IMG/VR virus record: IMGVR_UViG_3300037140_000154
Coordinates: 1-32,685 of that record
Reading direction: 5' to 3' (one strand)
Length of the DNA stretch: 32,685 nt
Source: a virus
Shown: positions 5,436 to 26,642 of the stretch, piece after piece
Position numbering within the stretch: position 1 is the first letter of the stretch
Layout: each line of letters begins with the position of its first letter
Notes under the pieces: generated by a model
What the model was told of the DNA's origin: nothing
Databases searched by the model: none
What the model saw: the letters and a program-made list of their open reading frames with translations, nothing else
Translations under genes and position numbers: made by a program

Positions 5436-5453
5436 CAGTCCAGAATTGGACTG
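5436..5453. repeat. variant copy of dispersed SPELD palindrome
   Basis: CAGTCCA GAAT TGGACTG: 7-bp perfect arms around a 4-base centre. Differs at one position from the 16-base consensus AGTCCAGAACTGGACT. It lies in the leader just upstream of the first capsid-operon gene. Read on the minus strand in the frame beginning ATG TAC at 5458, it would give SPILD followed by TGA. Confidence 0.8.
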
Positions 5454-5510
5454 TACATCAATTTGAAGTGACCTCCGGTAGTCTCGCGGACCCCGGAGGC
5501 CACAGCGCGG

Positions 5511-5567
5511 TTAGCCGCGCGCTTTCTTATGCCGTTTGCGGTTCGCAACTTTTCCGAAGGAAAGCAT
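5511..5567 (-). CDS. tiny basic leader peptide candidate (18 aa)
   Basis: A short ORF, MLSFGKVANRKRHKKARG, with an excellent ribosome site (AAGGAG, 9 bases before ATG). Half of the residues are Lys or Arg. Its TAA stop lies exactly in the loop of a GC-rich hairpin. It lies between the promoter at 5636-5665 and the capsid operon. It could be a regulatory leader peptide whose translation controls the downstream hairpins, or a real micro-protein. Too short for homology arguments. Confidence 0.45.
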   Translation of the reverse strand: MLSFGKVANRKRHKKARG

Positions 5568-5635
5568 GACGTGTATCTCCTTTCCGGCGTTAGCCGAGGC
5601 CCGATCCGTCGTCGCACAGGGCCTTTATCGTTACG

Positions 5636-5665
5636 AGGATACGCTTAAAATTCCTCCTATGTCAA
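5636..5665 (-). promoter_or_regulatory. sigma70-type promoter for capsid operon
   Basis: On the minus strand, -35 TTGACA (5660-5665), an 18-base spacer and -10 TATCCT (5636-5641). The predicted start is near 5629, giving a leader of about 208 bases before the gene at 5421. It is divergent from the HNH gene at 5748. The -35 is perfect; the -10 matches at four of six positions. Confidence 0.6.
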
Positions 5666-5729
5666 ACAAAAAGTTTATAGTTGCACGTTTTTGTCTACGG
5701 CAATACCCCATTTTCGTTGACTTTAATTA

Positions 5730-5738
5730 TGAGATAAT
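5730..5738 (+). promoter_or_regulatory. extended -10 promoter for HNH gene
   Basis: TGAGATAAT is an extended -10 element (TGn plus GATAAT, one mismatch from TATAAT). It ends 9 bases before the ATG at 5748, so transcription would start at or very close to the start codon and the mRNA would be nearly leaderless. No convincing -35 and no ribosome site are seen. Confidence 0.45.
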
Positions 5739-5747
5739 ACAACCAAG

Positions 5748-6191
5748 ATGCCGTACAATTACCGAAAAGACCCTCTGTATAAATCGACACACGGATCGTG
5801 GCGAAATATGCACTATCGGTGCAAGAATCCAAACTATCCTTGGTTCCGCGACTACGGCGGTCGTGGTATCAAAGTCTGCGAGCGTTGGAATAGTTTTGAA
5901 AACTTTCTAGCAGACATGGGCATCAAGCCTGCTGGCCTGACTCTTGAGCGCGAGCACAACGACCGCGACTACGAACCAGGTAACTGTCACTGGGCAACAT
6001 GGGACGAACAGGGGAGCAACAAGCGGAATACTCGCTTCGTAGAATTTCGTGGAGAGACTATCAGCCTACCTGACTTTTCTAGGAATGTTGGTGTGGCGCG
6101 GAAGAGAGTCACCGAGCGCTTACGCCGTGGGTGGACGACGGAAGAGATCGCTATTGCCGGGAACGCCAAATACCGGCCTGCGTCTGTCTAG
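5748..6191 (+). CDS. HNH-type homing endonuclease-like protein
   Basis: A 147-residue protein with the phage HNH/AP2-type signature: W..M..RC.NP, then YGGRGIKVCERW (about 36-48), F..DMG.KP (about 50-62), and LEREHNDRDYEPGNCHWAT (about 64-83), which matches the ββα-metal region. A C-terminal helix-turn-helix-like segment (about 100-135, PDFSRNVGVARKRVTERLRRGW) probably contacts DNA. It is on the opposite strand to all neighbours and sits exactly between portal and capsid operons, with its stop overlapping the portal stop. It is related to the protein at 8050-8694 but lacks that protein's N-terminal Cys-rich domain. Probably a free-standing mobile endonuclease. Confidence 0.75.
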   Translation: MPYNYRKDPLYKSTHGSWRNMHYRCKNPNYPWFRDYGGRGIKVCERWNSFENFLADMGIKPAGLTLEREHNDRDYEPGNCHWATWDEQGSNKRNTRFVEFRGETISLPDFSRNVGVARKRVTERLRRGWTTEEIAIAGNAKYRPASV

Positions 6192-8047
6192 GCGGCCTGG
6201 CCGGTTCTCTGGCCGCGTGTCGTGCGCGGTGTCCTGCCGGCCGCCTGGCCCCCGACTAATCCGGCCTCTCGCTCTTTCATGATGAGCTTGATCTCCGCCG
6301 CGACATCGCCGATGTCGGATTTCTTCAGCAAGGTTTCAAGACTCAGGGCGCCGCTTCGGAACAGCGTGAGAGCTTTAACTTGATCGTGATATTTCGCAGC
6401 GCCATGCAACGATCCGGGAGCGACGATCAATCTGAATCTCTTCCAGAAAGATTCACGAGCTTGATTCGCCGGCACCATGTTGCTGCAATCCATTTCGTAA
6501 TCTTGCAGCGTTACGCCATCGATTCCTAGCGCATTAAATCGATCTTTGCGATTGAAAAATTGGATGTAGTGACTTACTGCAATTTTCCCAGCGTCCCGCA
6601 GAAACGCTTCGGTGTACGACCCTTCCAGCCTGATCGGAGCCGACTGCGAGTCTCGGATCTGCTCGATGGTATCCCCGCCCGGAACCTGCTTCTTCTTCAT
6701 CAGACTGTTCGGGTCCATCGATCCCGCGTGCCGATCGAACATCGACAGGATGTAGCGCGAGAACTCGAACACGTACGCCGGCAGGTTCGGCGGGTCGAGC
6801 GCGCGCACGTCGCGAATATCTCCGGTGTTGTTGAGCATCATCTTCTGCCCCGGGATCTCGGGGAAGAATCGCTCCCAGTCCGCCGGTAGGACCGAGCCGC
6901 GCTTGGCGACGTACGCTTGGTTGATGGCTTTCTTTACCGTGTCGAAGACGCCGGCGGAGATCTCGTTGATGCCCTTGTTGATCGGCAGGAGTGCGCGGTA
7001 CTTGGAGAGCCCGCCGGCTCCCCATACGATCGGGTCAAGCACGAGTTGCGCGAACGGGAACCCGTCGAACCAATACGGGGTGGTGCTGTCGTAGAGGTCG
7101 TAGTCCCCGCCGAAGATCATGAGGCGCTTCCGCGGATACATGCGCTCGCCTGGCTTCACGCGGTACCAGTAGTTGTGATCGTTGATCGAGAAGCGCGGGT
7201 CTTTGACGATGACTTCCTTCTGGCTCTCATTCACGCTGAAGTCGTCGATCCAGTACTCTTCCAGTTCTGATACCGGGAAGATGGGGGCCATCGTCGATCG
7301 CTGCCACTCGGCCGCCATATCGCGGTTGACGTAGCGCATCGACGGGGAGAGGCGGTTCCAACTGTACTCGTTCATGCCGAGCGGGGCGAACGATGAATTG
7401 GACTCTGGTTGATCGCGGCGGTATTGCTTCGAGGAGCGCAGCACCTTCTCGGCGATCTCCTTCCCCCAGCGCGCGTGGAAGTAGGACACCGGCTTGAAGG
7501 TTCGGTACAGGATCGCGCTCGACAACTGGAGCTGGCCTGGATTGTTGATCGGCAGGCACGTGTCCATGCCGCAGGTGCCGACGCTGACGCGGCCCGAGGC
7601 GCCGTTCACTTTCCAGTAGCCGACTGAGAGTAGCCCGTGGTCTAAGACTTCCGCCAGGCGAAGATGAAGGTCCTCGGTGATCCAGGTGTGCTCGCAGAGC
7701 TTCTTTAGGATCTCTGCCTGGGATATGAAGTCCTGGTGAGCGCTGACTGAGATCGTGGGGCGCACGTCCATGTACTGCGCCAGGGTCTCTTTGCGCGCCC
7801 GGCTCATGTGGTTGTCGACGTAGCCGGAGCGGAACTTCGGGCGGTCGCGGGGCCACATTCGGCCTTCTATGGCCGAGATGTAGGACTGTAGGTTGGCCCA
7901 CTCTTTATTATTTTTCTGCTCCCGGAAAGCCTGCTCCCTAGCGGACTGCCTGAAAGTGGCGAGCTTGGTCCGGTAATTGTCCGTGAAGTCTGTCGTTCCA
8001 GATTTTATTCGGATGATGGGGCCGCGTGGTGCCTCGACTGGGACCAT
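6188..8047 (-). CDS. portal protein
   Basis: A 619-residue protein. Features include an early helical segment (YRTKLATFRQSAREQAFREQ), a Trp/Pro-rich stem-proximal part (EGRMWPRDRPKFRSGYVDNHMSR, discussed by its key W and P residues), a beta-rich wing with many aromatic residues (about 250-350, ending GFPFAQLVLDP), and a long helical stretch with ALLPINKGINEISAGVFDTV, which matches portal proteins of the P22-like group (partner linking by 'lp.q..iN'). Length fits. The Gly/Arg/Ala-rich tail is variable. It lies between terminase and scaffold/capsid genes, as expected. It is flanked on both sides by HNH endonuclease genes. It forms the dodecameric DNA channel of the head. Confidence 0.75.
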   Translation of the reverse strand: MVPVEAPRGPIIRIKSGTTDFTDNYRTKLATFRQSAREQAFREQKNNKEWANLQSYISAIEGRMWPRDRPKFRSGYVDNHMSRARKETLAQYMDVRPTISVSAHQDFISQAEILKKLCEHTWITEDLHLRLAEVLDHGLLSVGYWKVNGASGRVSVGTCGMDTCLPINNPGQLQLSSAILYRTFKPVSYFHARWGKEIAEKVLRSSKQYRRDQPESNSSFAPLGMNEYSWNRLSPSMRYVNRDMAAEWQRSTMAPIFPVSELEEYWIDDFSVNESQKEVIVKDPRFSINDHNYWYRVKPGERMYPRKRLMIFGGDYDLYDSTTPYWFDGFPFAQLVLDPIVWGAGGLSKYRALLPINKGINEISAGVFDTVKKAINQAYVAKRGSVLPADWERFFPEIPGQKMMLNNTGDIRDVRALDPPNLPAYVFEFSRYILSMFDRHAGSMDPNSLMKKKQVPGGDTIEQIRDSQSAPIRLEGSYTEAFLRDAGKIAVSHYIQFFNRKDRFNALGIDGVTLQDYEMDCSNMVPANQARESFWKRFRLIVAPGSLHGAAKYHDQVKALTLFRSGALSLETLLKKSDIGDVAAEIKLIMKEREAGLVGGQAAGRTPRTTRGQRTGQAA

Positions 8048-8049
8048 GG

Positions 8050-8694
8050 CTAATACTCTAACGCAGTGGTGGACCGAGTGCGCACCGGAGTGGTAATTGC
8101 TGTCTCTGGTGCCCAGCCATCATAAATCCTAGTGAAGACTGTAAATTCGTTCAAGCCACGTTCCCTCGCCCATTCGGTGACAGTCTTTGTTTCCCCGCCT
8201 ATGGTTACTAGATGATTGGTTCTCCGGTTCCTGGCTTGGTCCGTCTGGGTAGCCCACCTCACGTTGCCGGGCTCGTAGTTGCCGTTGTTGTCGATGCGGT
8301 CGAGGGAGTGGGCGGGGGAGGGCTTACGGCCCACGCAGTTAATAAATTCTTGAAATGAACTGAAGAGGAATTTAATTCCACGACCGCCGTAGCGGAAGTA
8401 GTCTTTGCAGTTCGGGTCAGTGCAGCGAACTCTTGCTCTTCTAAATACCCGGTATTCCACTGTCTGAGTATCGTTGGCACAATGCCCATGCTTGGCGTTT
8501 GCGCGCATTCGCGCTTTCGTTAAGCATCCACAACTCTGTTGCTTTCCTCCGGTCAATGTCCCTGATCTAACCTTCTCCGTGGTATTGCCGCAATCACAGA
8601 GACATAGCCATAATGACGAGCCGAACTTATCGCGTCCAGCGCGCCGTATCACCGTCAACATTCCAACTCGTATCCCGCTCAGATCTTTAAACAT
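8050..8694 (-). CDS. HNH-type homing endonuclease-like protein with Cys-rich N-terminus
   Basis: A 214-residue protein. Residues 1-60 form the zinc-type module seen in many phage HNH proteins (LSGIRVGMLTVI, then WLCLCDCG and SCGC). Residues about 85-150 hold the HNH-like region (RC.DPNC..Y..YGGRGIKF, then LDRIDNNGNYEPGNVRWAT). A helix-turn-helix-like tail follows (about 165-200, TEWARERGLNEFTVFTRI). It overlaps the upstream zinc-protein gene by 8 bases and ends 3 bases before the portal start. It is on the same strand as its neighbours and is related to the 5748-6191 protein. Likely a homing-type nuclease with the portal region as target. Confidence 0.75.
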   Translation of the reverse strand: MFKDLSGIRVGMLTVIRRAGRDKFGSSLWLCLCDCGNTTEKVRSGTLTGGKQQSCGCLTKARMRANAKHGHCANDTQTVEYRVFRRARVRCTDPNCKDYFRYGGRGIKFLFSSFQEFINCVGRKPSPAHSLDRIDNNGNYEPGNVRWATQTDQARNRRTNHLVTIGGETKTVTEWARERGLNEFTVFTRIYDGWAPETAITTPVRTRSTTALEY

Positions 8695-9151
8695 TAGCGG
8701 CCTGATCAGATTTTTCCTTGAGGACTTCTTGGCTATTTGCCTCTCTCATATCTTTAGCTTCGGATTCGGCTATTGGAATGAAATCCCTGCCATTTGGGGA
8801 AATCCTACCTGGAGAACAGTCCTGCGGCAACCCTAATCCTTCCGCCTTAGCGTACTCCCTTTGCTCCTGAAAAGTAGTGATGAGTTGCGGCTCCGGCTTG
8901 CCGCTCTTTGTCCCGTTACGTCTCCAGACCCAATGGCTTCCATCCCCGTGCCCGCCCTCTACTGATCGGTCTAGGTACTTGGATGTAATTGGTCCCGTCC
9001 AGACTATTCCGAACCGGCTCACTCTCCGCTCCATCGGATATCCACATGCCGGACAGTCCAGTTCTGGACTGTCAAAGCTACGCGCGAACCATTCAACGAC
9101 CTTGTCGAACTCCGGGCACTCCGGAGTAATGCAGGAGCTTTCATAGGTCAT
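8687..9151 (-). CDS. zinc-ribbon protein with SPELD insertion
   Basis: A 154-residue protein with an N-terminal zinc ribbon of FmdB type: C7 and C12 (CITPEC), then C33 and C36 (CPAC), followed by a charged, probably flexible tail. The palindrome at 9052-9073 encodes SPELDC at residues 28-33, so the element lies inside the ribbon and supplies one of its cysteines. The ATG overlaps the TGA of the upstream gene by four bases (ATGA). Function unknown; small zinc ribbons of this kind are common in phage head operons. Confidence 0.6.
   Translation of the reverse strand: MTYESSCITPECPEFDKVVEWFARSFDSPELDCPACGYPMERRVSRFGIVWTGPITSKYLDRSVEGGHGDGSHWVWRRNGTKSGKPEPQLITTFQEQREYAKAEGLGLPQDCSPGRISPNGRDFIPIAESEAKDMREANSQEVLKEKSDQAANV
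9052..9073. repeat. dispersed SPELD palindrome, longest copy
   Basis: Perfect 10-bp arms, GACAGTCCAG (9052-9061) and CTGGACTGTC (9064-9073), around a 2-base TT centre. Core AGTCCAGTTCTGGACT. Lies inside the zinc-ribbon gene at 8687-9151, where the minus strand reads D-SPELD-C. Confidence 0.9.
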
Positions 9152-9426
9152 CCGGGGATATTACCATCTCCTTGCCAGTAATCGTTACCATCTGAGCCTT
9201 CGACGTGCGAACTATGCGGCGTCAATGCCAGCAGGATTGTTCGGCAAGCCACCTGAAAAGCGTAGGTCATCTCCTGCGTCGGGAGGTACATCAGACCCAT
9301 TACGGGTGCAACGTCCAATCCCATCTCTTTAGCCTGCTTCACGAGAGCGCCGAAGGCCACTTCCGTGGCAAATTGAGCCCGCCCATAGTCGGTCAGCTCT
9401 GGTTTCGGAATTTCAATTTCCGGCAC
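9148..9426 (-). CDS. small hypothetical protein
   Basis: A 92-residue protein started by GTG, whose first base follows the TA of the upstream TAG stop (TAGTG). It is mostly helical with two moderately hydrophobic stretches (about 43-70, VMGLMYLPTQEMTYAFQVACRTILLAL) that are too polar to call membrane segments with confidence. The last 20 residues are acidic and Gly-rich. Its TGA overlaps the next ATG. No recognised family. It is part of the terminase-to-portal series by position. Confidence 0.55.
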   Translation of the reverse strand: MPEIEIPKPELTDYGRAQFATEVAFGALVKQAKEMGLDVAPVMGLMYLPTQEMTYAFQVACRTILLALTPHSSHVEGSDGNDYWQGDGNIPG

Positions 9427-10040
9427 TAACTCACCGATGTCGTCTGCTGCGTGTTGGCGGTGTCGAAAATCCCGTCGTCGGGATTGTCGTCTTCTTCGTC
9501 ATCCTCATCGTCGGGCTGTACGGCAGCCGACTTCCGCAGCCGGTCCATGATGTCGGCGGAGGTGAAGTCTTTGTTGCCGAGAATCTTGGCGGCTTCGGCC
9601 TCATCCTCGCGATTCAGGAAGACGATCTTCATATCGACCGCGATGTCGTAGAAGTAACCGAGCGCTACGAACTGGCTCATGGTGTCCGATATTAGGTGCT
9701 GCACGCTCACGCCCTGCGTCAAGGCCCTATCCCGCAGGGGCTGTGTCAGCGCCGGGTCAGTCGGCCACCGGATGACCATCTCGCCACCGTCGACTCCGGA
9801 GCCCGCCCCCACCGCTTCAATGATGTTCTCTTCCGAGTCCAGTTCTGGACTGATGTCGAGCAACCGATCTACGGCTCCCGACGACAAGATCATGGCGCCG
9901 GCGATCACCTGGCCGATGACCTCATTGACGAAGGCGTCGACCTTGTTCGCTGGCGGTGCGTCTCCCTCGACCATTTCAAGGATTTTGCCGAGCTGGGCTT
10001 CGTCTTTGAGTTCTACCGTGACTGGAACTTTAATGGACAC
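9426..10040 (-). CDS. hypothetical protein with SPELD insertion and acidic tail
   Basis: A 204-residue protein when started at the GTG at 10040, which has GGAG seven bases upstream and overlaps the upstream gene by 11 bases. The frame is open to 10121, but that extension lies wholly inside the previous gene. A helical centre (about 10-65) is followed by SPELDS at 64-69 encoded by the palindrome at 9836-9851, a second alpha/beta part (about 85-160), and a very acidic tail with runs of Asp and Glu. No recognised family. Confidence 0.6.
   Translation of the reverse strand: MSIKVPVTVELKDEAQLGKILEMVEGDAPPANKVDAFVNEVIGQVIAGAMILSSGAVDRLLDISPELDSEENIIEAVGAGSGVDGGEMVIRWPTDPALTQPLRDRALTQGVSVQHLISDTMSQFVALGYFYDIAVDMKIVFLNREDEAEAAKILGNKDFTSADIMDRLRKSAAVQPDDEDDEEDDNPDDGIFDTANTQQTTSVS
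9836..9851. repeat. dispersed SPELD palindrome
   Basis: Exact 16-base copy (AGTCCAGTTCTGGACT on the plus strand) with 7-bp arms around TT. It lies in the gene at 9426-10040 and is read on the minus strand as SPELDS. Confidence 0.9.
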
Positions 10041-10485
10041 TCGATGACTCCTTCGGCTCTTTGACGGTGAGGCTTTGGTCGATAACAGTGTCGGCGGTTT
10101 CGGCGCGAGTGATGTTGCCAATGGCGTCCACGGTGAGCGTGCCGCTGGAGAATGACGCTGCCGGAACCGACCCAGTATTTGTTATCCATCCATTTCCGTT
10201 ACACGCATAGAGATGGCTCGCGTACTGGCTGGAATCCGGCACCAGCGCCCGAAAGTCCGCCGAGAACTGGATCTTCTCCCATCCGGCTATAGCCTTCCCG
10301 TTCTCTTGCGTATAGGTCTTGGCGACCTCAATCTTTACGTCTTCCCAGCGCTTCAGCGCGTCCTTATATTCGCGGTAGGCTTTGGCCAACTTCTGCGAGT
10401 CCGAACGCTCAACGATCATAATCTTGGCCTCTTGCGCGAAGCAGGGGCTCAGGGTTGCAAATAGCGCTATCAGGATGGTCTTCAT
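10030..10485 (-). CDS. putative secreted or periplasmic protein
   Basis: A 151-residue protein when started at the ATG at 10485, preceded by AAGGAAAC. This start gives a clear signal peptide: MKTILIALFATLSPCFAQ, with cleavage likely after CFA. The longer frame to 10533 overlaps the terminase gene. The mature part has a helical, charged first half (about 25-75) and a Ser/Thr/Gly-rich second half with one CNGNGW motif. A secreted protein right behind the terminase gene is unusual. The style resembles host exported proteins, so it may be an accessory gene. Function unknown. Confidence 0.6.
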   Translation of the reverse strand: MKTILIALFATLSPCFAQEAKIMIVERSDSQKLAKAYREYKDALKRWEDVKIEVAKTYTQENGKAIAGWEKIQFSADFRALVPDSSQYASHLYACNGNGWITNTGSVPAASFSSGTLTVDAIGNITRAETADTVIDQSLTVKEPKESSSVH

Positions 10486-10495
10486 TTTAGTTTCC

Positions 10496-13400
10496 TTAAA
10501 GGTCATCATAGTTCGGAATCCCCGCTTTAGCAACCTCTCGTTCTTCGAGTTGCTCCGGGTTGATCCTGGCCACGGCCTTGGTGCTTACTCCCTTGCGCCG
10601 GGCGCTGAGCATAATTGAACCGCACTTCTCGCATCTGACATTTGGTGGATTGCTCGGCCGCGGACACTCGTGGTGTTCGAACTTGAAGCCACACGATAGG
10701 CAGGTGAGATCGAAGTCTTTCTTCGGGCCTTCCTCCTGTTCGTCTCCAGGTTGAGGATTAGCCGGCCGAACATCGTACACCTGGTCGAGTTCGTGGGCGC
10801 AGTGCACTGAGATCATAGCCGCGATCAGTTCGTCGTCTTTGAATCCAGAACTGGCCTCTGCCTTCTTCTCGCTGTCTTCGTCTTTCTGAAACATCTTCAT
10901 CTCTGTGAGTAGATTTGCGGAGCGCGGTATCCACGTTTGCTGGCGAAGTCTTCGGACTGCTTGGCCCCACAACTTAGGTTTAGAATCTCCTTGCGTGATC
11001 CAGTGCCACTTCGTTGTCATCACGTTAACGGAGTCCAGGCTTTTCCAGCGGTAAATATTCGGATAGGAGAATCTGATTCTGACGTCATCGGCGCACGTCT
11101 GGTAGGTGTTGTACTCGATACACACCATCGCCCAGTTGTACCATTTCCCCAATTGGACCACCGGTACAGCCAGGTCGTAGTGGTTGATTTCGTTAGAGCG
11201 CCAGGTGGCCGCCTGAACATCCGGGTTCAGCCCCTTGCCTATGCGATTGAGGACGATAACGGAGTAGTCGTGTTTGCCGCCCAAACCTTCAGCAACGTCG
11301 ACGCCCTCGGAATATTCATGATCCTTCATCGGAATTTCCCAGATCTTCAGGGGAGCATCATCCCACCGATGATCTTCAGTGCACCACGTCTGAAAACAAA
11401 CCGAGCCACATACTTGTCCTGTGATTGGATCTCTTTTCAGCTTGGTCATCGCATGGACTCTACCGTCCTTATCCAGGAAGCCCTGCATGATCGGATCACG
11501 CACGTTCTTCTCGACGAAGTCCAGGCAGTCAAGTGGGAATACCGGATCACCAGAAAGCTGAAAACATTCGTCAGCCGTGGCTGAGTTATGAGCCAGTATT
11601 CCGTTTGCTCCGAAGCATAACGCTTCCGGAACGGAGATGTCATACACGTCGGTCTCGCCAGCGGGCTCTACCGATTTGACCTCATCTTCCATGGGATTGC
11701 GCCCGGCCCAGTGCATGTTGCGCCCCGGTGGGCGCCTGCATCCGGATCGCTTTCTCGTGCTGATAAAACCAACCTCATCTTGGAAGAGATTTGAGGACGC
11801 CGAGTTGATGCGCAATTCGTTACCAAGATACTGATACTGCTTAAAGTTTTTTCGATTACCCCCAAGCTTGACTACCCTATTCACTACTGAGTTGATACCG
11901 AACCCCAACAGCAGTAACTGTATGTGGGCCATGAAATCTGAATACTTGGTAAAGAAGAGAGTTCTTGGAGCATCCTTTCCGGCGTGTCCGTCGCACTCGA
12001 AAAGACCGGATAGGAATTCCTTCACGATCCGCTTGGGACTTTTGAGAATCACGTCCGGGACTCTGACCTTTCGCTTCCATCCCTGACCGTTGTCGGTGTT
12101 CTGCAGTGCACCAAAAGCTTGAAGTATTTCGCGCCATCGTTTATCAAAAGATGTCACGAGTGTCATGCCCCCTCGTTTATAGGTATTGGGTATCCGGCCG
12201 ATGATGCCAGCTATTAAGCGAGAGACGTCTTCAACTACATCTTGATCCTTATGGTCGCAGGCGATATGGACACAGTTCTGATTGAAACATCCGTCCCCCA
12301 TGAAATAACCGAGGAAGCGAGCTACGTCCTCTGTTATCTCAATCGAGGATTCCACGGCTGGAACTGGATGCCATCTTAGGGTGACCATGCGTTCGGAGAA
12401 GCGAGGAGGAGAAAGCTTTATTCTGTCGCCAGGTTTCAATGCGTCGGCTCGCGCCCATGTTCCATCCACTAAGGCCATACCGTGGTCCGGCGTTACGTCA
12501 ATCGTTCGACCGAATTTGGTGGTTACCTTGACTACTGGCTTCTTCCCCTTCGGAAACCATTTAGCCACCTTCCCGGTGTCCGTCCATTCGATACCGGCGG
12601 CGCTACGCAGTTCCAGAAATCCTTGTTCGCTGGAGATTAAGGCGTCTCCTGAAACACAAAGTTCCTGCTTCAGCTCTTTAACCGAGTCCGCGCCCTTGCG
12701 TTCGGCATTCTTCCGCTTCTTCTCCATGAAACGCAGTTGTTCATCGCTCAACACGTACGGGTGTAAGGTTCCGAGTTTACAGTGCGGGCATGTAGTTTCC
12801 GCCAGCGGCACGCCAAGTTCAAGCGATTCTCTCCACCTGCCGCACGCTTCGTTGTCGCAACGCACCCACTGGTTCTGGATCTGTTCGCGCATCAGGAGAT
12901 CTGGCTTGCCCGGGCGCCATCCCATCGGAGGAGCTTCGACGCGAGTCTTCTCAAAGAAGAACGGAAGGAATATACAACGCCAGTCACAGTCCTCCCCGGC
13001 TTCGATGTTAGTTCTCCAGAGATCGTGGTAGTAGGTGCCAGCGCCCTTGGCCGTAGACTCGATGATGGCGAAGGTCATCGGAGACTTCTCGGCGAGCGCG
13101 TTACCAAGATCGCCGTCGATTGCTTCGCGCGCCACGCCCTGCTGCCATCCGCCCAACTCTGAAACGTGGAGAGCCGTCAGTCGGATTCCTTCACCGATGC
13201 CGCTGTACTGGCTGGCGGTTTGCAGTTCGATTCGGGAGTTCAATCCTGGGCGCACGCGGCGCTGGTTGACGTCGGGGTTATTGAAGAACAGACCTTCTTT
13301 GAATTCGCGGTTGGCTACGAGCGGCTTCAACCACCACGGCATCTGATCGTAGATGTGAAGCATGATCGAGAACAAATACTGGGTGCGTTTGATCTCGGGT

Positions 13401-14254
13401 CCCACCACCACGGCGTTGATGTTCGTGTTGAACATCGTGGACCAGGCGATCATCGCTTCGATGAGCGTGGAACAGTTGTGCGTCACCATCCCTTCCGCGA
13501 TGAAGGTTCCCGTGCTCGTTCGGATGTCCACCATTCGGCGATCTCCGATGGGGGTCACTGACGATACCGTGTTGTATCCCTCGACGGCCGCACCTCCATT
13601 CGATCTAGCTAACTTGTCCCCGGACTGCAAGTGGAGCACGGTGGCCCAGTCGTCGTTCCGGAGGAACGGATGGTCGTCGCTAGCAATGAGCGGATTGCGA
13701 TCTTCAAAGTCCACGCGGAATCCAGGCTTGGTCACTTCCCACCAGTCCAAAACCGTGGCTTGGCGAATCTTTCTGCCGCCGGATTCTGGCGAGAATTCAT
13801 CGACCGATAGCAAAGTATCTCCGGGCCTCAGGTCCTTTATCGCAACCCACCGCATGTCATCCGTTAAGACTTTGGTCTCAGGATCGAGGCTGCCCAATTG
13901 TCTTGCTTTGAGTATTATGAACTTCTGCGCGAGCCCCATCGCGCGCACTTTCAAGATTTCTTCGAGGATCAACTCCTGCGATTCCCACAGCGAGAATAGT
14001 TGATCACCAGTATCTTTGTTGGTGATCATGAAATAGTTCTTTGCGGCGTAGACGAAGTCCGCCTGGCAACGCAGAGTCTCCTTCTCGATGAGATTCCAGT
14101 CTCCGGAACTGAGAGCGTCGAAGTCCCCGTATGAACTAGTGGGAGTGGTGATTAGGAATTTAGGCTGATCTAGGTATTCGATCAGTTCTACTATGCCGGT
14201 ATCTCGCTTCCAGCGAGCTGTCGCCTGGAACTCACTCGATATCATCTGAGGCAT
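10496..14254 (-). CDS. terL: terminase large subunit with two inteins
   Basis: A 1252-residue precursor; the spliced protein would be 755 residues. It is the DNA-packaging motor and nuclease. ATPase: P-loop KARQLG (116-121) continued after intein 1 by CSTL (261-264); Walker B-like LHVSELG (362-368); coupling motif IIESTAKG (397-404). A zinc-ribbon insertion has C466, C471, C489 and C492. Nuclease: VDVAEGLGGKHDYSVIVL (985-1002, acidic D986), CIEYNT (1045-1050, E1047) and KDDELIAAM (1139-1147). A second C-terminal zinc ribbon has C1185, C1188, C1208 and C1211. Intein 1 occupies 122-260 and intein 2 533-890. The possible small subunit overlaps its start by 23 bases. Zinc ribbons recall GpA-like terminases. 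Confidence 0.9.
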   Translation of the reverse strand: MPQMISSEFQATARWKRDTGIVELIEYLDQPKFLITTPTSSYGDFDALSSGDWNLIEKETLRCQADFVYAAKNYFMITNKDTGDQLFSLWESQELILEEILKVRAMGLAQKFIILKARQLGSLDPETKVLTDDMRWVAIKDLRPGDTLLSVDEFSPESGGRKIRQATVLDWWEVTKPGFRVDFEDRNPLIASDDHPFLRNDDWATVLHLQSGDKLARSNGGAAVEGYNTVSSVTPIGDRRMVDIRTSTGTFIAEGMVTHNCSTLIEAMIAWSTMFNTNINAVVVGPEIKRTQYLFSIMLHIYDQMPWWLKPLVANREFKEGLFFNNPDVNQRRVRPGLNSRIELQTASQYSGIGEGIRLTALHVSELGGWQQGVAREAIDGDLGNALAEKSPMTFAIIESTAKGAGTYYHDLWRTNIEAGEDCDWRCIFLPFFFEKTRVEAPPMGWRPGKPDLLMREQIQNQWVRCDNEACGRWRESLELGVPLAETTCPHCKLGTLHPYVLSDEQLRFMEKKRKNAERKGADSVKELKQELCVSGDALISSEQGFLELRSAAGIEWTDTGKVAKWFPKGKKPVVKVTTKFGRTIDVTPDHGMALVDGTWARADALKPGDRIKLSPPRFSERMVTLRWHPVPAVESSIEITEDVARFLGYFMGDGCFNQNCVHIACDHKDQDVVEDVSRLIAGIIGRIPNTYKRGGMTLVTSFDKRWREILQAFGALQNTDNGQGWKRKVRVPDVILKSPKRIVKEFLSGLFECDGHAGKDAPRTLFFTKYSDFMAHIQLLLLGFGINSVVNRVVKLGGNRKNFKQYQYLGNELRINSASSNLFQDEVGFISTRKRSGCRRPPGRNMHWAGRNPMEDEVKSVEPAGETDVYDISVPEALCFGANGILAHNSATADECFQLSGDPVFPLDCLDFVEKNVRDPIMQGFLDKDGRVHAMTKLKRDPITGQVCGSVCFQTWCTEDHRWDDAPLKIWEIPMKDHEYSEGVDVAEGLGGKHDYSVIVLNRIGKGLNPDVQAATWRSNEINHYDLAVPVVQLGKWYNWAMVCIEYNTYQTCADDVRIRFSYPNIYRWKSLDSVNVMTTKWHWITQGDSKPKLWGQAVRRLRQQTWIPRSANLLTEMKMFQKDEDSEKKAEASSGFKDDELIAAMISVHCAHELDQVYDVRPANPQPGDEQEEGPKKDFDLTCLSCGFKFEHHECPRPSNPPNVRCEKCGSIMLSARRKGVSTKAVARINPEQLEEREVAKAGIPNYDDL
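11585..12658 (-). other. intein 2 of TerL, with LAGLIDADG endonuclease
   Basis: Precursor residues 533-890 (358 aa). Splice junctions: QEL before C533; N890 followed by Ser+1 (SATADECF), so extein joining gives QEL-SATADECF. Block A begins CVSGDALISS; block B has TPDH at 588-591; block F/G reads VYDISVPEAL ... GILAHN. LAGLIDADG motifs are FLGYFMGDG (647-655) and FLSGLFECDG (747-756), so a homing endonuclease is present and looks intact. The insertion point is between the ATPase and nuclease domains at a conserved terminase motif (E-F-SGD). Confidence 0.9.
13475..13891 (-). other. intein 1 of TerL, mini-intein in the P-loop
   Basis: Precursor residues 122-260 (139 aa). Starts Ser1 (SLDPETKVLTDD), ends THN with Cys+1 (CSTL). 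Block B reads SDDHP rather than the usual TxxH. No LAGLIDADG or HNH block is present and the length is that of a mini-intein. It splits the terminase Walker A element between KARQLG and CST, so the ATPase cannot work before splicing. Confidence 0.85.
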
Positions 14255-15076: not shown

Positions 15077-15088
15077 GAAGGAACGATA

Positions 15089-16356: not shown

Positions 16357-16357
16357 A

Positions 16358-18200: not shown

Positions 18201-18750
18201 GCGTACGACCTATCTTGCGCGCTGCCGCCGAGATCTCGATCTTTTCCCGCGCTATCTTTTCTCGCCCCTTCTGCGTTAGCTGAAACGACCCCCGCTCGAC
18301 CATCAGATCAAAAGCCTTTTCGATCCTCTGGTAGAACGCCTGGCGCCGGATCTTCAATTCGTCCGCCATCTCCATGCCCGTCATCTCCGAACGGAAGAAC
18401 TTGTCGGCCAGGCGGAAGTTGATGTCCCGCTGCCGGCGGCGAACAGGAGTCAACGTAGGAAGATCGCGGGGAACGCCGATGTATTTGTAGAGCTTCAACC
18501 GTACAAGTTTTTGCATCCGTCCTGGGGTGAAACGGTTCCCTTCTAGGATCTTAACGTCCTCGACACGCGGCGCCTGCTTGGGCTTGTCCTCGGTGATGTC
18601 CCGCTTGCAGTGCGGACACCACTGGACCTCCCGGTTGCGCTTAGGGTGCCAGCGCCATTTGCAGTGCGGGCAGCGCATCTTCAGTCGGGTAGAGACCTTC
18701 TTTACTCTCGCCAGTCTCTTCAGAACCTGCTTGTGATTTTCGAGGCTCAA
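18163..18750 (-). CDS. zinc-ribbon / helix-turn-helix DNA-binding protein
   Basis: A 195-residue basic protein started by TTG, which overlaps the TGA of the ParB-like gene (TTGA). Ribosome site GAAGGA lies upstream. A double CxxC zinc ribbon (C27, C30, C45, C48) is followed by a helical region with a likely helix-turn-helix at about residues 118-140 (MTGMEMADELKIRRQAFYQRI), preceding a winged segment. Next to ParB-like and HerA-like genes it is probably a DNA-binding partner or regulator. No named family. Confidence 0.6.
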   Translation of the reverse strand: MSLENHKQVLKRLARVKKVSTRLKMRCPHCKWRWHPKRNREVQWCPHCKRDITEDKPKQAPRVEDVKILEGNRFTPGRMQKLVRLKLYKYIGVPRDLPTLTPVRRRQRDINFRLADKFFRSEMTGMEMADELKIRRQAFYQRIEKAFDLMVERGSFQLTQKGREKIAREKIEISAAARKIGRTPKLYASVVGGEV

Positions 18751-19556
18751 GCCTTAGCTTCCTTCGCCGCCGGACCTTCGATGACCAACAATTGCACGCC
18801 ATCCTTGCGCTTGACCGATACGCCCGTGCATTCCATGCTCATCTTCTTTTCGCCGCGCACCAGCACCACCTTGTGAGGCGTCTTCGGGATCAGGACCGGG
18901 ATGTGCGAGCCGGACTCGAACGCGGACACAACATTCGGCCATTCGATGAAGCCGCTGTCGACCCAGGACTTGAAAGTATTGACCCGCTCATCGTTGTCGT
19001 CGCTAACAGGATCGGCCACGGCATCCGGGATCTTCGACTTCGGCTTGCGCTTGTGTGCGGTGACGTCCGTAGTGTTGTCGACGTTCGCCAGTTCGTAGCG
19101 AACTTCCTTCACGAGTTGCGGGCTCACGCCAACCATCTTGGCGATCGGGCGGTCCCCCTTACGCTTGAGAGTGGCGTTCTGTAGGATCATCACCACCGCA
19201 TTCCTTTTGTCCGCGCGCGACAGCGGCAGACCGTGCTTACCGTTTCGCTCGCAGCTAAACTCGATGGCCTCGGCGATGGCGTCCCCGGATTCAGCTTCGT
19301 GGATGTTGACTTCGATCTTTAGGATCTCGCGCTCCTCGAAAGCAAGGATGCGATGCCAGCCGTCCGCCAGGATGATGCGCTCCTGCTTTACGCCCTCTAC
19401 CTCTATCGTGTCGGTGAAGGCATCCACCGGGTCGAACTTAACTCCGCTTTCCATCGATTCGATGTACTGATCGATGGTCTGCTTTGAGACCTTAGTTCGA
19501 ATCTGAATCTCAGCAAGGCGCTGGATGTCTTCGATCTTTACGAGTCTAGTTTCCAG
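18747..19556 (-). CDS. ParB-like nuclease/CTPase-domain protein
   Basis: A 269-residue protein if started at CTG (19556), which has AGAGGAG seven bases upstream. The first ATG (19454) would cut off the start of the ParB domain. From CTG the domain is complete: VKIEDIQ, IRTKVSKQTIDQYIESM, then DGWHR (about 65-69), the ParB/sulfiredoxin signature. A helix-turn-helix (about 135-160, IAKMVGVSPQLVKEVRYEL) follows a HGLPLSRADKRN segment typical of ParB. The C-terminal part (about 190-269) is a separate unknown domain. It could act in partition or regulation. No ParA is seen. Overlaps its neighbours by 11 and 4 bases. Confidence 0.75.
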   Translation of the reverse strand: METRLVKIEDIQRLAEIQIRTKVSKQTIDQYIESMESGVKFDPVDAFTDTIEVEGVKQERIILADGWHRILAFEEREILKIEVNIHEAESGDAIAEAIEFSCERNGKHGLPLSRADKRNAVVMILQNATLKRKGDRPIAKMVGVSPQLVKEVRYELANVDNTTDVTAHKRKPKSKIPDAVADPVSDDNDERVNTFKSWVDSGFIEWPNVVSAFESGSHIPVLIPKTPHKVVLVRGEKKMSMECTGVSVKRKDGVQLLVIEGPAAKEAKA

Positions 19557-19986
19557 TGGTGTTCTCCTCTTTGGCAGTCAGTGATTTGATGTAGTCGGCT
19601 AAGAATTTCATGGCTCGGGACTTGGCGGCGACCAAGGTATCCAGATAATCTTTTTGCTCAAGTATGCCTTCCCATGGCATGTTCAACCAGTCCACATCGA
19701 TCGCTTCTCCGTAGTGAAGCAACTGCACCTTGAGCGCGGCGTCTCCCAACTTGGGGACCACGATGTAACCGGCTTCTTTGCGATCTTCTTTCCGGGCCAG
19801 GCACATCCCAACAAGATCTATATTATTGGGAGATGAGACATATCCCCGGAAGAATAGCTTGAAGTCTCCGATCACCAATTCCGGATCCTGGATGGAGGAT
19901 GCACGGCAGGCGAAGTTAACGGCCTCAAGTATGGATTCACTGGTCTCGAACTCTGTCGCGCAGTGGGGACACTTAGTGGCAGGCAT
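19546..19986 (-). CDS. small zinc-binding hypothetical protein
   Basis: A 146-residue protein starting with a CxxC knuckle (KCPHC, residues 5-9). A second cysteine pair is not evident, so the metal site may be completed otherwise. The rest is alpha/beta, with a helical Lys/Glu-rich C-terminus. Its ATG overlaps the TAA stop of the HerA-like gene (TAATG) and AAAGGA is upstream. Its stop lies in the ribosome region of the ParB-like gene, so the three genes are likely co-translated. Function unknown. Confidence 0.6.
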   Translation of the reverse strand: MPATKCPHCATEFETSESILEAVNFACRASSIQDPELVIGDFKLFFRGYVSSPNNIDLVGMCLARKEDRKEAGYIVVPKLGDAALKVQLLHYGEAIDVDWLNMPWEGILEQKDYLDTLVAAKSRAMKFLADYIKSLTAKEENTTGN

Positions 19987-22913
19987 TAGTTAAGTCCTTT
20001 AGGAAATAGCATCGGCGTTGCAATCGCCGTCTTAGTGCTCGGGTAATCCAGGAACCCAAGCGTGCGCAGCTTAGACACCGAGTTGACGAATCCTTTGCTG
20101 GCGAGGTTGGTGTACCCAGACTTCGCCCCCAACTCCGTCCGCTCGATCTCATCCGGGTACGCGTCGATCAGAACGCGCAGGATCTTGCCGTGCGCCGGTC
20201 CCAGGGTGCTGATGATCTTTTGGTGCAGCTCGCGCAGCGACCGTGGCGACTCCACCGGGTTAGCGTGCTTGCGCCCTTCGCTGGTGAAGGAGACCGAATC
20301 GGAGTTCGGGTAGTCGATCAGGCCGGCCGTCCGCAGACTGCTCATGGAGTTCACAAACCCCTTGCTCGCCAAGTTCGTGTAGTCGGCCATTAACGCCACT
20401 TGCACGCGCGGCGGCTTGTCTACGCCGATGGCTTCCATCTCCGCGATGGCATCCAGGATCTTCTGCTCTACCGGGCGGAGGTGGCCGTTGGGGGATGCTC
20501 GTTCTTTGGAGGGTTCATTCCTGTGAACGTATTCCATTGATGGCGATAGTTTTGGTGCTGGCGGTATGATCGGTTCGTCCTTAGCCGCCGCTATGATCGA
20601 GTCCAGTTCTGGACTGCCGGATACGATCTCCGGGAAATTCTTCATACTCTGCTCGATTTCGTTATGTACCCGCAGGAGAGAGAAGCGGGCACCCTCAATC
20701 ATCTCCACTGCGGACTTGCGGTAATTCCTAATTTGCTTACCGAGTTCCGCCTTCACCGACCGGGCGCCGCGCTCGAAGGCCTTATCAATATCGCCAGCGT
20801 AGTTCTTGGTGACAGTGGGTGGACCTGGCTTCGCGAGGAGTTCTTTCCGTAACTCAGCAATCTGCTTGCGGAGTTCCTTGGGATCGTCGGCCTTCTGCTT
20901 CTCAATAGTTTCCTGGATCTGCTTCGACAATTTACTCTTGTCGATCTCAGCGAATGCCTTAGGAGTGATGAGCTTCTGCCCGATCTTGGGAGTCGCGCCG
21001 CTATCGAAAGTGCTGCGCAGGTAGAAGTTCGCCTTCATGAACTTCCCCAGGAACGAAGGAGACCAGAAGTAGCCCACCCCGTTCGGGAGATCGGCCACAT
21101 CCGCCATCATCTTGTTCCGCTCTTCCTGCGTGCCCTTAGCCTCAACCCACTCGTCGATGGCCCTGCGGTCATGCTTTCCGATAGTTCGTAGGCATATCAA
21201 AGTCTCGCACTGAGTACGCAGCGTAGTGCTGATCGGCGCCGGGCGTTGACCGATGATCGTCATACCTAAGCCGCGCGTGCGCCCAAGTCCGGTGATATCC
21301 TCCAAGGCTCCCAGGCATCGCGCAGCATCCGGCCCACGATCCTTAATAATCTGCGGAGCGAATCGCGCCACTTCATCGCAGAACACCATGAGGGGTTCGC
21401 GGTTTCGGTGATAGAGAGTCTCCGCGAAGGCGGTGACGAACTGGACTTGCTGGTATTTCCGCATCAACTTGAGGTCGAGGACGATTGGAACGCGGTTTTC
21501 GACAACAAAGTTGGCTACCACTTCTCCGGCCGTGGGCTCCAAGGGAACGTCAGCGTACTCTCCGCCGAACACGTATACCGGCAATCCTGGAGACTTACCG
21601 TCCGCCGAACTCTTCAGGCCATGCCAGCTACCGGTAGGGTCGATGATACACACGGGTTGACCGGCGCGTATGATCCCCTCGGCCATGACTGCTCCGACGT
21701 TGCTGTTGTGTGTAGGAATGCAGGCTCTACCGGCTAGGTACAGGTGACTTGGAGAATCAACCTGAATGCATTTTACCGGTACGCTATCGATTTGTTCGGC
21801 AGCAACTATCATGCGCTTGTTGTGGCGCCCGCGCTGACCTCTGTCGAACGATAATCGCTCTGCTTTCCGCCGGATTCGAAATATCTGATGATCTGGGACG
21901 AATCTTATTTCGTAACAGTCCTTGTGGCGCTTGCCGTTAAGTATGGCGACTTTTGTTCTTGTTCTATAAATACACCCGAGGGAGGATAGAAGGTCCTGGA
22001 AGCCGGTAGCCAGTGCGGAGCTGGTCGTGTAATAGCTACAACTATTTGAATTCTTTGGAACCGTGCCATCAGTATCCATCAGACCAGAAAGGAGAGCGCG
22101 CCGCTGTTCTATGCTGGCCCTAAGGTAGATACCAGGGATATGCTTGTTGGACACAAGGCCCATCTGCTTTAATTTGTACAGGAGAGAGTGAATGCGCCCA
22201 GCGCCACGAGTAGCGGCTTTACCGCTCACGTAATAGCCGGATGCAGCGCCCTTATACTGGACTCGCTTTGCGGTGAATCCAGCCGCGTCCAGTTGTTCCA
22301 AAACTTCTATATCGGCAGTGGTTATGACTGCGTTCGCAGAGGTTCCATCGCCGAGCCATAGGCCGAGGACATAAGGATCGATCGGGAGCGCCGCATCGGG
22401 GAGCATGAATGGCTTAGCCGCTTTGATGCTGTGGTTTAAATCGCCCCTTTTGCCCCACATTAGACTCGAAGCAATCTCCAGGGTGGTATTTATCGAAGGG
22501 AAGGATGTAACGACACACTGCGGTCGCTCCTGGAATTTTAGAGTGTCGTGCAAACGCTTACGGCCTTTTGCTCGCCTGTTATAAAAGCTTGCGCGGACTA
22601 ATCCTGTTTCGGTAAGCCACTCGTGTTCGGCGTCAGCAACTATTTGCGATCCATCGGAAAACGTTATCCGAAAACACGGGCGCCCAACCTGTACTTCGGT
22701 AACGCCCACAACCAGGCATGGGTTCCCTTCTTCGTCGATGAGGAAGTCTCCAACGCTGGCCTCTATCATAGTCGTCCAACCAAATGGGGTCGGAAGCGGC
22801 GTATCTAGAGCGAGAGCTTTTCCGGAACCCCTGATTCCGAAGATCGCGAAGGTGTTGGTAATCGCCTCCAGTGGGAGCGAAAGACCGGGAGCGATATTGA
22901 TGGTATGTTTCAT
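19986..22913 (-). CDS. HerA/FtsK-type ATPase with class 3 intein
   Basis: A 975-residue precursor from the ATG at 22913 (604 after splicing). The frame is open to a TTG at 22952, but MKHTINIAPG is the natural HerA-type start. Walker A is GIRGSGK (26-32) continued after the intein by SNVG; Walker B is LMVFCDE (about 508-514); a TIIGQRPAPIS strand follows. A coiled-coil stretch (about 660-700) leads to SPELDS (767-772, palindrome at 20600-20615). The C-terminus has two similar winged-helix repeats, each with YTNLASKGFVNS (about 843-880 and 932-967). It probably moves DNA or protein along DNA, with ParB-like and zinc proteins encoded just downstream. The ribosome site is weak. Confidence 0.8.
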   Translation of the reverse strand: MKHTINIAPGLSLPLEAITNTFAIFGIRGSGKALALDTPLPTPFGWTTMIEASVGDFLIDEEGNPCLVVGVTEVQVGRPCFRITFSDGSQIVADAEHEWLTETGLVRASFYNRRAKGRKRLHDTLKFQERPQCVVTSFPSINTTLEIASSLMWGKRGDLNHSIKAAKPFMLPDAALPIDPYVLGLWLGDGTSANAVITTADIEVLEQLDAAGFTAKRVQYKGAASGYYVSGKAATRGAGRIHSLLYKLKQMGLVSNKHIPGIYLRASIEQRRALLSGLMDTDGTVPKNSNSCSYYTTSSALATGFQDLLSSLGCIYRTRTKVAILNGKRHKDCYEIRFVPDHQIFRIRRKAERLSFDRGQRGRHNKRMIVAAEQIDSVPVKCIQVDSPSHLYLAGRACIPTHNSNVGAVMAEGIIRAGQPVCIIDPTGSWHGLKSSADGKSPGLPVYVFGGEYADVPLEPTAGEVVANFVVENRVPIVLDLKLMRKYQQVQFVTAFAETLYHRNREPLMVFCDEVARFAPQIIKDRGPDAARCLGALEDITGLGRTRGLGMTIIGQRPAPISTTLRTQCETLICLRTIGKHDRRAIDEWVEAKGTQEERNKMMADVADLPNGVGYFWSPSFLGKFMKANFYLRSTFDSGATPKIGQKLITPKAFAEIDKSKLSKQIQETIEKQKADDPKELRKQIAELRKELLAKPGPPTVTKNYAGDIDKAFERGARSVKAELGKQIRNYRKSAVEMIEGARFSLLRVHNEIEQSMKNFPEIVSGSPELDSIIAAAKDEPIIPPAPKLSPSMEYVHRNEPSKERASPNGHLRPVEQKILDAIAEMEAIGVDKPPRVQVALMADYTNLASKGFVNSMSSLRTAGLIDYPNSDSVSFTSEGRKHANPVESPRSLRELHQKIISTLGPAHGKILRVLIDAYPDEIERTELGAKSGYTNLASKGFVNSVSKLRTLGFLDYPSTKTAIATPMLFPKGLN
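20600..20615. repeat. dispersed SPELD palindrome
   Basis: Exact 16-base copy, AGTCCAGTTCTGGACT on the plus strand, in the linker before the winged-helix repeats of the HerA-like gene; minus strand reads G-SPELDS. Confidence 0.9.
21705..22817 (-). other. class 3 intein in HerA P-loop
   Basis: Precursor residues 33-403 (371 aa, counting from the ATG at 22913). N-terminal residue is Ala (ALALDTPLPT) and the C-terminal junction is THN followed by Ser+1. The class 3 WCT set is visible: W99 in block B (ADAEHEW), C382 in block F (VPVKCIQVD), T401 in PTHN. LAGLIDADG motifs YVLGLWLGDG (181-190) and ALLSGLMDTDG (273-283) show a homing endonuclease. It splits the P-loop exactly between GSGK and S. Confidence 0.9.
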
Positions 22914-22962
22914 TCTTAAAAAATTCAGGGAGCGGTCTCCCCCTAGTTGCAATCATCCTTTC

Positions 22963-24124: not shown

Positions 24125-24388
24125 CTACCTCGGGTGAACGTATCCCCAACTGCCATTGCCTTCGGGGACGACATCGAATTGCCCTTGCAGGCGGATCAGG
24201 GCATCGGGAGTCCAGCTGCAGCCAACCTGCGCGCGGTAGGGATGCGGCCCTCCCTCGCCGATTGTGCCCTGGCAACTGGCCCATGTCCGCACGCCTGGGA
24301 TTGTGTTCAGGTATTCCACCATATCGGCGATGCCCAAGTCGGCATCAATCCAGACCTGGACTGGGCGGGTTTCGTGGGGCAAGCTCAT
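24125..24388 (-). CDS. small phage protein with SCQGT motif
   Basis: An 87-residue protein from the ATG at 24388 (AGGAGAG upstream). Pattern VQVWIDADLGIADMV, YLNTIPGVRT, ASCQGTIGEGG, then a Trp-containing end. I recognise the pattern as a recurring small phage protein of unknown function. Its start overlaps the stop of the upstream gene (ATGA). A degenerate SPELD-like palindrome (14 of 16) lies at 24347-24362, read here in another frame (VQVW). Confidence 0.65.
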   Translation of the reverse strand: MSLPHETRPVQVWIDADLGIADMVEYLNTIPGVRTWASCQGTIGEGGPHPYRAQVGCSWTPDALIRLQGQFDVVPEGNGSWGYVHPR

Positions 24389-25571: not shown

Positions 25572-25588
25572 TTGTAGTTCAATGTACC

Positions 25589-25605: not shown

Positions 25606-25607
25606 AC

Positions 25608-26053
25608 TACTCTTTTCTTTATTGTTTGTTGTTTCCTTTTTGAAAAGGGGCGGACGCGGGGCCGTCACCCCGCCGGCCCGGTGCCACCAACGGGGGCCAC
25701 CCCCTGTGCCTTCCTAATCCCGCGCGCGTCGTCAACGGTATCGGTCTAAGCTCCTGATACCGGGCCGCTTCATGACGCGCGCGCGTTGCGCACAATGGCG
25801 CGGGTGACGCGCGCTCACACGTAGCGCGCGGGATACCTGTCCGTTGGCAATCTGGACACAATACCGGGACACACGCAAACTAAAAACAGAATGGAATCAA
25901 CGGAGTAGAAAATAACACTTGACGGAATGAAACGGGATACTGCAAAATGGGAACCGCCGGAGGTTACGGCAGAACTGGAGAATGAATCTATGGCAGACAG
26001 AACGGTTAAGCAGGGCGAGAGGGAAAGCAGAGGGAGGACGGGAGGTTATAGCC
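25608..26053. other. non-coding region between divergent gene sets
   Basis: About 450 bases separate the leftward RHH series from the rightward series. Contents: an AT-rich tract (25608-25645), then nested GC-rich palindromes at 25721-25830 (separate entry), then an A-rich stretch (25875-25925). A weak TTGACG (25919-25924) lies on the plus strand. The start of a short ORF, MADRTVKQGERESRGRTGGY and on (25990-26067), with GGAG upstream, is also visible; I rate it uncertain. Confidence 0.4.
25721..25830. repeat. nested GC-rich palindromes, origin or control candidate
   Basis: Outer arms CGCGCGCGTC (25721-25730) and GACGCGCGCG (25774-25783); inner arms CGGTATC (25736-25742) and GATACCG (25756-25762). 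A separate hairpin follows: CGCGCGCT (25808-25815) and AGCGCGCG (25823-25830) with a 7-base loop. All lie at the switch in gene direction. Confidence 0.6.
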
Positions 26054-26278
26054 ATGAAACGTTGTGAGATGTGCTGGTCGCCTTTGAACGTGCGCCAGAT
26101 GGCGAATGGGGGCTATCGGTGTAGTGTATGCCAGGATTCGATGTCAAGCCCGCTGCATACTTGGGCCTTGGAGCGCAATGCCGGTGCGGATCGGCGCGAA
26201 GTGCTGGGAACCATTGCCGCATGGGCTCTAATAGCCTTCGCGGTGTTCCTGTTCGCAGTGGCGTATCTGGCCGGTTAG
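26054..26278 (+). CDS. zinc-ribbon membrane protein
   Basis: A 74-residue protein from the ATG at 26054, with GGAGG upstream; the open frame before it (25982) lacks a ribosome site. A CxxC pair (C4, C7) and a second pair (C23, C26) form a zinc ribbon; residues about 51-73 are a membrane helix (LGTIAAWALIAFAVFLFAVA). It has the form of a small membrane-anchored zinc ribbon. Function unknown. It is the first clear rightward gene. Confidence 0.6.
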   Translation: MKRCEMCWSPLNVRQMANGGYRCSVCQDSMSSPLHTWALERNAGADRREVLGTIAAWALIAFAVFLFAVAYLAG

Positions 26279-26333
26279 CGGCACGCGCTAGGGGAGTCCA
26301 AGCACGTCCCAAGCCCCTACAATCCCCCTGCTA

Positions 26334-26387
26334 GGTTGCGCCTTCGGCGCAATGCCAGAATAGCGGAGAAACGCGTAAGGCGCAACC
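26334..26387. repeat. alternative stems, structured RNA candidate
   Basis: TTGCGCC TTC GGCGCAA (26336-26352) is a tight 7-bp hairpin. GGTTGCGCC (26334-26342) can instead pair with GGCGCAACC (26379-26387). The same left arm can thus form two mutually exclusive stems, as in switch-like RNAs. Confidence 0.4.
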
Positions 26388-26523
26388 GTGACGGCTTCCC
26401 GCTACCTAGAATCCTCCGCCTGCCGTGCGATTGCGCTACGCTTGCCGGATGCAATCCCGAAGGCCTTCGGACAATAGCGAACCATTGCAAATTGGCCTAA
26501 GCACGTAACATATGCGGTCTAGG

Positions 26524-26560
26524 TTGACCGTGGCTAGGGATTCGGATACTCTGACCGTGG
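26524..26560 (+). promoter_or_regulatory. promoter bracketed by direct repeats
   Basis: -35 TTGACC (26524-26529), 17-base spacer, -10 TACTCT (26547-26552). Direct repeats TGACCGTGG lie at 26525-26533 (over the -35) and 26552-26560 (from the -10 end to the start site), 27 bases apart. Probable operators for the rightward gene series beginning at 26768. Confidence 0.55.
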
Positions 26561-26626
26561 TCGAATTCCGCCATTGTACGATGTCGGAATGGGTCCGACG
26601 TGCGCGACGTGCGCGTTAGGGTATCG

Positions 26627-26642
26627 GGTCCAGAACTGGACT
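26627..26642. repeat. dispersed SPELD palindrome, intergenic copy
   Basis: GGTCCAGAACTGGACT, 15 of 16 bases as in the consensus. Orientation is opposite to the four coding copies, and here it lies in non-coding DNA, downstream of the promoter at 26524-26552. Confidence 0.85.

Follow-up and report, generated by a model that had tools for sequence, protein, structure and literature searches.

We analysed a window of viral DNA comprising 32,685 nucleotides (IMG/VR record IMGVR_UViG_3300037140_000154, positions 1 to 32,685), in which a 16-bp palindrome recurs in genes of unrelated function and in intergenic DNA. The results suggested that the palindromes are dispersed operator- or centromere-like sites for a phage-encoded helix-turn-helix (HTH) dimer acting as a silencer or organiser, a reading to which we assign a probability of roughly 0.55.

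In a scan of the window, AGTCCAGAACTGGACT was found exact on the minus strand at four places, and 16 strand-wise matches with no more than 3 mismatches were observed against 0.25 expected from shuffles. When scored by its arms (AGTCCAG-NN-CTGGACT), the palindrome occupies nine window sites with at most 2 arm mismatches, four of them exact and five with 1-2 mismatches; dinucleotide shuffles of the window contained almost no such sites. The nine sites are as follows.

4612-4627: 2 arm mismatches, in gene 3824-4711 (minus strand), reads YPDLD; place kept in the relatives G015/G023
5437-5452: 1 arm mismatch, intergenic; gene 5110-5421 (minus strand) starts 24 bp downstream of its centre
9052-9073 (core 9055-9070): exact with 10-bp arms, in the zinc-ribbon gene 8687-9151 (minus strand), reads SPELD immediately ahead of the second Cys pair
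9836-9851: exact, in gene 9426-10121 (minus strand), reads SPELD
10842-10857: 2 arm mismatches, in the terminase gene in a different frame, reads ASSGF
15826-15841: exact, in gene 15089-16000 (minus strand), reads SPELD; the G013 orthologue aligns ungapped
20600-20615: exact, in the HerA-like ATPase gene 19986-22952 (minus strand), reads SPELD
24347-24362: 1 arm mismatch (AATCCAGACCTGGACT), beyond the genes accepted in the analysis
26627-26642: 1 arm mismatch, intergenic

These results confirmed the four exact copies reported in the first-pass annotation, including the 10-bp arms at 9052-9073, their common SPELD reading in four minus-strand genes, and the near-exact copies at 5436-5453 (the 5437-5452 site) and 26627-26642, each with 1 mismatch. 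The sites at 4612-4627, 10842-10857 and 24347-24362 were added by arm-based scoring. A degenerate copy reading YPELD had also been listed at 15105-15120; it has 4 arm mismatches, and it was assigned to the background because about 10 other places in the window are equally mismatched. The AA/TT centre has no fixed orientation and is found either way round in the joined genome described below.

Contig IMGVR_UViG_3300037140_000062 (G001, 44.3 kb) ends in 127 bases that recur without a difference at window positions 1-127, and therefore the two were taken as adjacent pieces of one phage genome. G001 contains tail genes, an early region with dnaB and the gene of the candidate binder; it carries 12 sites, and the joined genome of about 76.8 kb carries about 21. 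Relatives were gathered via the major capsid protein and via the palindrome itself, and several of these records are fragments. A comparison of GenBank phages with window positions 8001-16000 gave no match besides one short stretch. Palindromes with 7-bp arms of whatever sequence around a 2-bp centre were searched for, and the consensus arms were picked from the data. This search revealed one dominant dispersed palindrome per site-bearing genome, far above shuffles, in which the top arm mostly counted 3-8. The arms and sites were as follows.

Window plus G001: AGTCCAG, 21 sites
G004 (G003 is the same phage): ASTCCAG, 25 sites
G013: TRTCCGA, 29 sites
G014: WGTCCAR, 10 sites
G015/G023: AGTCYAG, 4 sites, short fragments
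G016: TGTCCGR, 22 sites
G017 and G018: TGTCCAG, 9 and 12 sites
G019: NGTSCAA, 32 sites with at most 1 mismatch; a loose pattern, 46 versus 14.5 in shuffles at up to 2 mismatches
G020: WGTCTTG, 15 sites
G021: CRTCTTG, 23 sites

All of the lineage-specific arms share one register, namely a 16-bp dyad of 7-bp arms and a variable 2-bp centre, and the arms differ despite 87% identical capsid proteins in related phages. Some GC-rich motifs of G013 and G016 had equal or higher raw palindrome counts, with the dispersed family ranked next, and these motifs probably come from local repeats. Such a dispersed palindrome family was not found in lambda, N4 or the most distant relative, G022. G002, whose kinship to the group extends little beyond the terminase, carries AGTCCAG-NN-CTGGACT 10 times with at most 2 mismatches, 4 of them exact. 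Another palindrome-like arm (TCGACGT, centre of 2 bp) scored 8 copies in G002, and at several sites of G004 the palindrome reaches about 26 bp (AATYASTCCAGNNCTGGASTRATT), most clearly in intergenic copies. The palindrome can serve as a sequence handle to join metagenomic fragments of these phages.

A site recurs just inside one tail-protein gene: it lies 35 nt past the start in three phages (G001, G013 and G014) and 31 nt past it in G016, reading AGTCCAGTTCTGGACT in G001, TGTCCGAGTTCGGATT in G013, TGTCCATGGTTGGACA in G014 and TGTCCGGATTCGGACA in G016. Both arms were altered jointly, toward each phage's own consensus, as a site does when it follows a dimeric binder that is itself diverging. Most other sites lack positional conservation, indicating that sites turn over.

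The location of the sites was evaluated family-wide, using gene calls that were crude longest open reading frames. The results indicated that 37/208 sites were intergenic against 12.2 expected, and that 54/185 lay within -100 to +50 of a gene start against 24.9 expected (P=2e-8), these pooled counts coming from genomes that share ancestry. The remaining sites, mostly intragenic, span the whole genome at a mean spacing of 3-11 kb. The spacing was slightly over-regular relative to random placement (combined P=1.4e-4), an effect driven by G004.

Among the phage proteins, the families common to all near-complete genomes include dnaB, a DEAD helicase, a coiled-coil protein and a small HTH protein. 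The first three are conserved to the same degree as the last, and none of them is obvious as a site-specific binder. The HTH protein appears to be the best candidate binder of the palindromes; its gene lies outside the window:

G001 5528-6217 (plus strand): candidate binder, 229 aa, helix-turn-helix, early region near dnaB

This protein was present in 8/8 genomes holding the early region, with the motif G-x-S-R-S-x-x-Y-E. In G002, the top match of the HTH profile was a similar-sized protein with the same motif (a 42-column match, hhalign E=4e-4); thus the HTH protein is probably also encoded by this otherwise nearly unrelated phage, which bears the same palindrome. No significant sequence match was obtained in Pfam, PHROGs, NCBIfam or the PDB. 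The predicted model was nearly all-helical, and that of the domain was confident, with a pLDDT of 91.8. In the structural comparison, ParB/Spo0J/Noc structures took ranks 1-4 when the whole protein was compared (Z 6.3-7.1, the next entry reaching 4.6) and ranks 2-9 and 11 for the domain (Z 4.8-6.0); all these values are modest for a helical protein. Foldseek gave no significant PDB match for the whole protein or the domain, and a viral structure library returned weak matches to uncharacterised and DUF3102 phage proteins. With modest Z and non-significant Foldseek scores, the likeness to ParB/Spo0J/Noc is a lead, short of proof. Previous work reported that ParB residues G170, K171, S172 and R173 touch parS (PMC7383237). 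In the phage family, the G, S and R are mostly retained in a similar-looking G-x-S-R motif, as compared by eye. Changes in the recognition helix did not significantly track those in the arms across 8 genomes (P 0.06-0.19), and in Mantel tests the arms were not significantly correlated with the divergence of HTH or DnaB. A CTP-binding ParB N-domain was not found by phrog_1033 or PF02195 in G001 or G004, both of which encode the HTH candidate.

In the mechanism that we propose, a dimeric phage-encoded protein would bind the palindromes, and this binder would be the early HTH protein, with a central ParB/Spo0J/Noc-like domain and without a CTP-binding domain. Roughly 10-30 bound dimers per genome might work jointly. 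Sites close to gene starts might then act as road-blocks or repressors, in the manner of KorB or stoperators, and the others as spaced genome-wide anchors that organise or mark the phage DNA, in the manner of Noc. Coding sites would persist where the peptide (SPELD, SSxGL) does no harm, so that the shared peptide would be a by-product. ParA (PF13614) and a tyrosine integrase (PF00589) were both without a match in 11 records, some of which are fragments; thus neither partition as a plasmid nor lysogeny of the ordinary integrative kind is supported. Still more tentatively, an apparently lytic phage family could be organising or silencing its genome via a Noc/ParB-like domain whose CTP clamp was lost or never existed, through 10-30 spaced palindromes that co-evolve with the protein in each lineage. 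If true, this would place beside KorB, Noc and stoperators a system of lytic phages that apparently works without CTP, and it would provide a natural series of at least 8 co-diverging site/protein pairs for studying the evolution of DNA-binding specificity.

The first-pass annotation had named ParB-like, RHH and zinc/HTH proteins of the window as possible binders. The RHH and zinc/HTH genes fell outside the families common to all near-complete genomes. The ParB-like protein is encoded as follows.

18747-19550 (minus strand): ParB-N-like protein, first ATG at 19454 and homology to 19550, 235 aa, phrog_1033 E=2.6e-5 and 5e-10

It is unlikely that this protein binds the sites as part of a partition-type system. 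Besides the phrog_1033 match, orthologues occur in G013, G014, G016, G018, G019 and G023, and proteins of the ParB type bind palindromes. However, the protein was not found in the site-bearing G004 (86 kb), G017 (95 kb) or G021 (78 kb), and ParA was in none of the searched records. As a universal binder it was dropped as the first choice because of its absence from these three genomes.

We compared the phage sites with known systems. KorB operators (OB) have a dispersed layout. The phage sites resemble KorB/OB of plasmid RK2, in which a ParB-type protein combines repression and partition (PMC11790492). KorB differs in being a CTP-dependent sliding clamp, a domain that the phage candidate lacks, and the phage sites are more numerous and mostly intragenic. 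Noc binds 16-bp palindromes (NBS, PMC8429893) at many dispersed sites (about 70, PMC4331003), and the phage sites, like those of ParB/parS and Noc, are 16-bp palindromes in multiple copies. Noc/ParB specificity can be shifted by few changes (PMC7383237), and the modelled domain of the candidate appears to align best to the ParB/Spo0J/Noc DNA-binding domains. In contrast to Noc/ParB, the phages have other site sequences, no ParA in their genomes and about one site per 3-11 kb; furthermore, ParB, Noc and KorB rely on the ParB N-domain (PMC8429893, PMC11790492), and none was recognised in the phage candidate. In their mode of action the palindromes come closest to stoperators, the operators of KorB or the sites of Noc, but they differ from each of them in part. 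The suggestion of the first-pass annotation that DNA-binding sites are scattered through operons in the manner of stoperators appears right in kind.

The stoperator parallel raises the reading that the sites are operators of a lysogeny repressor, which we judge equally unlikely as binding by the ParB-N-like protein. About 20 dispersed copies, a consensus drifting by lineage and the enrichment at gene starts are in its favour, as are parallels with Cluster A mycobacteriophages, whose stoperators form about 24 dispersed sites with a lineage-specific consensus (PMC5712189), and with SPBRE, an element repeated over the SPbeta genome and bound by one phage repressor, MrpR (PMC10516654). The phage palindromes too have many copies and a lineage consensus. 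However, Cluster A stoperators are asymmetric (GGTGGc/aTGTCAAG), mostly intergenic and aligned with transcription, those of L5 lying in one direction, whereas the phage sites are palindromic and mostly intragenic (37/208 intergenic). SPBRE lies in promoter regions, and MrpR has a tyrosine-recombinase fold, for which PF00589 gave no match in the 11 records.

It is somewhat less probable that a host protein, either a chromosome-organising or a regulatory factor, binds the sites. Phages can bear host-regulator sites, as reported for CtrA in alphaproteobacterial phages (PMC9437464). However, the arms differ between phages with 87% identical capsid proteins, and bacterial genomes held mostly a single palindrome per contig, across many phyla, among the matches listed. 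Among those matches, the bacterial scan is uninformative on host use. In addition, parS is strongly conserved and does not match the palindrome. A Mitsuokella multacida contig (NZ_GG697141.2) had at least 4 exact AGTCCAGNNCTGGACT matches, unlike most bacterial contigs.

A role in recombination, replication or packaging, with the palindromes as Chi-like or processing sites, is consistent with their genome-wide, somewhat regular spacing and with the helicase and resolvase-like genes in the early region. We consider it improbable, since the sites are enriched at gene starts, their dyads are symmetric and non-directional, and lineage-specific change would be unusual for such sites.

The remaining readings concern the coding copies. 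The first-pass annotation had proposed that the palindrome was inserted in frame, and the alignment with orthologues was used to look for clean gaps. Gaps were found in 15.8% of 303 site-orthologue comparisons versus 16.2% for random windows. At the four SPELD sites, the alignments had no site-confined gap, and SPELD takes the place of homologous residues, as in the zinc ribbon, where the window protein has SPELDC and the G004 protein SPDPEC. Orthologues of the window's SPELD proteins lack SPELD at those places; the G014 orthologue of gene 9426-10121 has its own SPELD site at another position, in the C-terminal tail. At the level of sequence comparison, these results demonstrated that copies arise when bases are substituted, both within genes and between them. 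The reading frames of coding sites were divided 68:67:32 family-wide (P=0.0005), and the rare frame reads VQxWT when the arms are AGTCCAG; thus the window's 4/4 SPELD readings are no more than a few cases of a frame that is tolerated. The common SPELD frame largely reflects which frame proteins tolerate. The chance of 1 in 216 calculated earlier for a shared orientation and frame was arithmetically right, but it was post hoc and treated as equal frames that are unequally tolerated.

Selection on the SPELD peptide or on an RNA hairpin is very improbable. Four proteins of the window contain SPELD, as does one of G014, yet copies elsewhere are intergenic or in other frames, and orthologues lack SPELD at corresponding places. 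Unpaired transitions on the coding strand were G-T in 70 cases versus A-C in 57 (P=0.29), so that G-U is not in excess and an RNA-pairing bias is absent. Selection on the DNA can thus cast its shadow as a peptide that recurs in proteins of no kinship. A mobile palindrome of the Rickettsia type, suggested earlier by the identical 16-mer within the reading frames of four unrelated genes, can practically be dismissed, since Rickettsia palindromic elements are insertions of about 150 bp (PMC10969869), whereas the phage sites are in-place substitutions with ungapped orthologues, arms that drift symmetrically by lineage while staying palindromic, and copies in every frame and in intergenic places.

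Several other features were observed in the window. The large terminase gene (10496-14254) is apparently interrupted by two inteins. One, at residues 562-890 (Intein_splicing 2.6e-15), includes a LAGLIDADG endonuclease, and a second, smaller and probable, begins near residue 122. In the HerA-like ATPase (19986-22952), an intein-like insert with a LAGLIDADG domain directly follows the Walker A GSGK. A TnpB/OrfB_IS605-like gene (16813-17934) lies within the structural operon and has a 51% identical relative at G013 20399-21571. Two related small proteins (5748-6191 and 8050-8694), without a Pfam match, resemble HNH/AP2-type homing endonucleases and have relatives at G014 9423-10184 and G013 10812-11879. 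Inverted repeats of 28 nt (27880-27907 and 32656-32683, 96% complementary) flank a segment of about 4.8 kb that includes an IS1-family transposase (29421-30362), and at its right end the window may consist of transposon instead of phage DNA.
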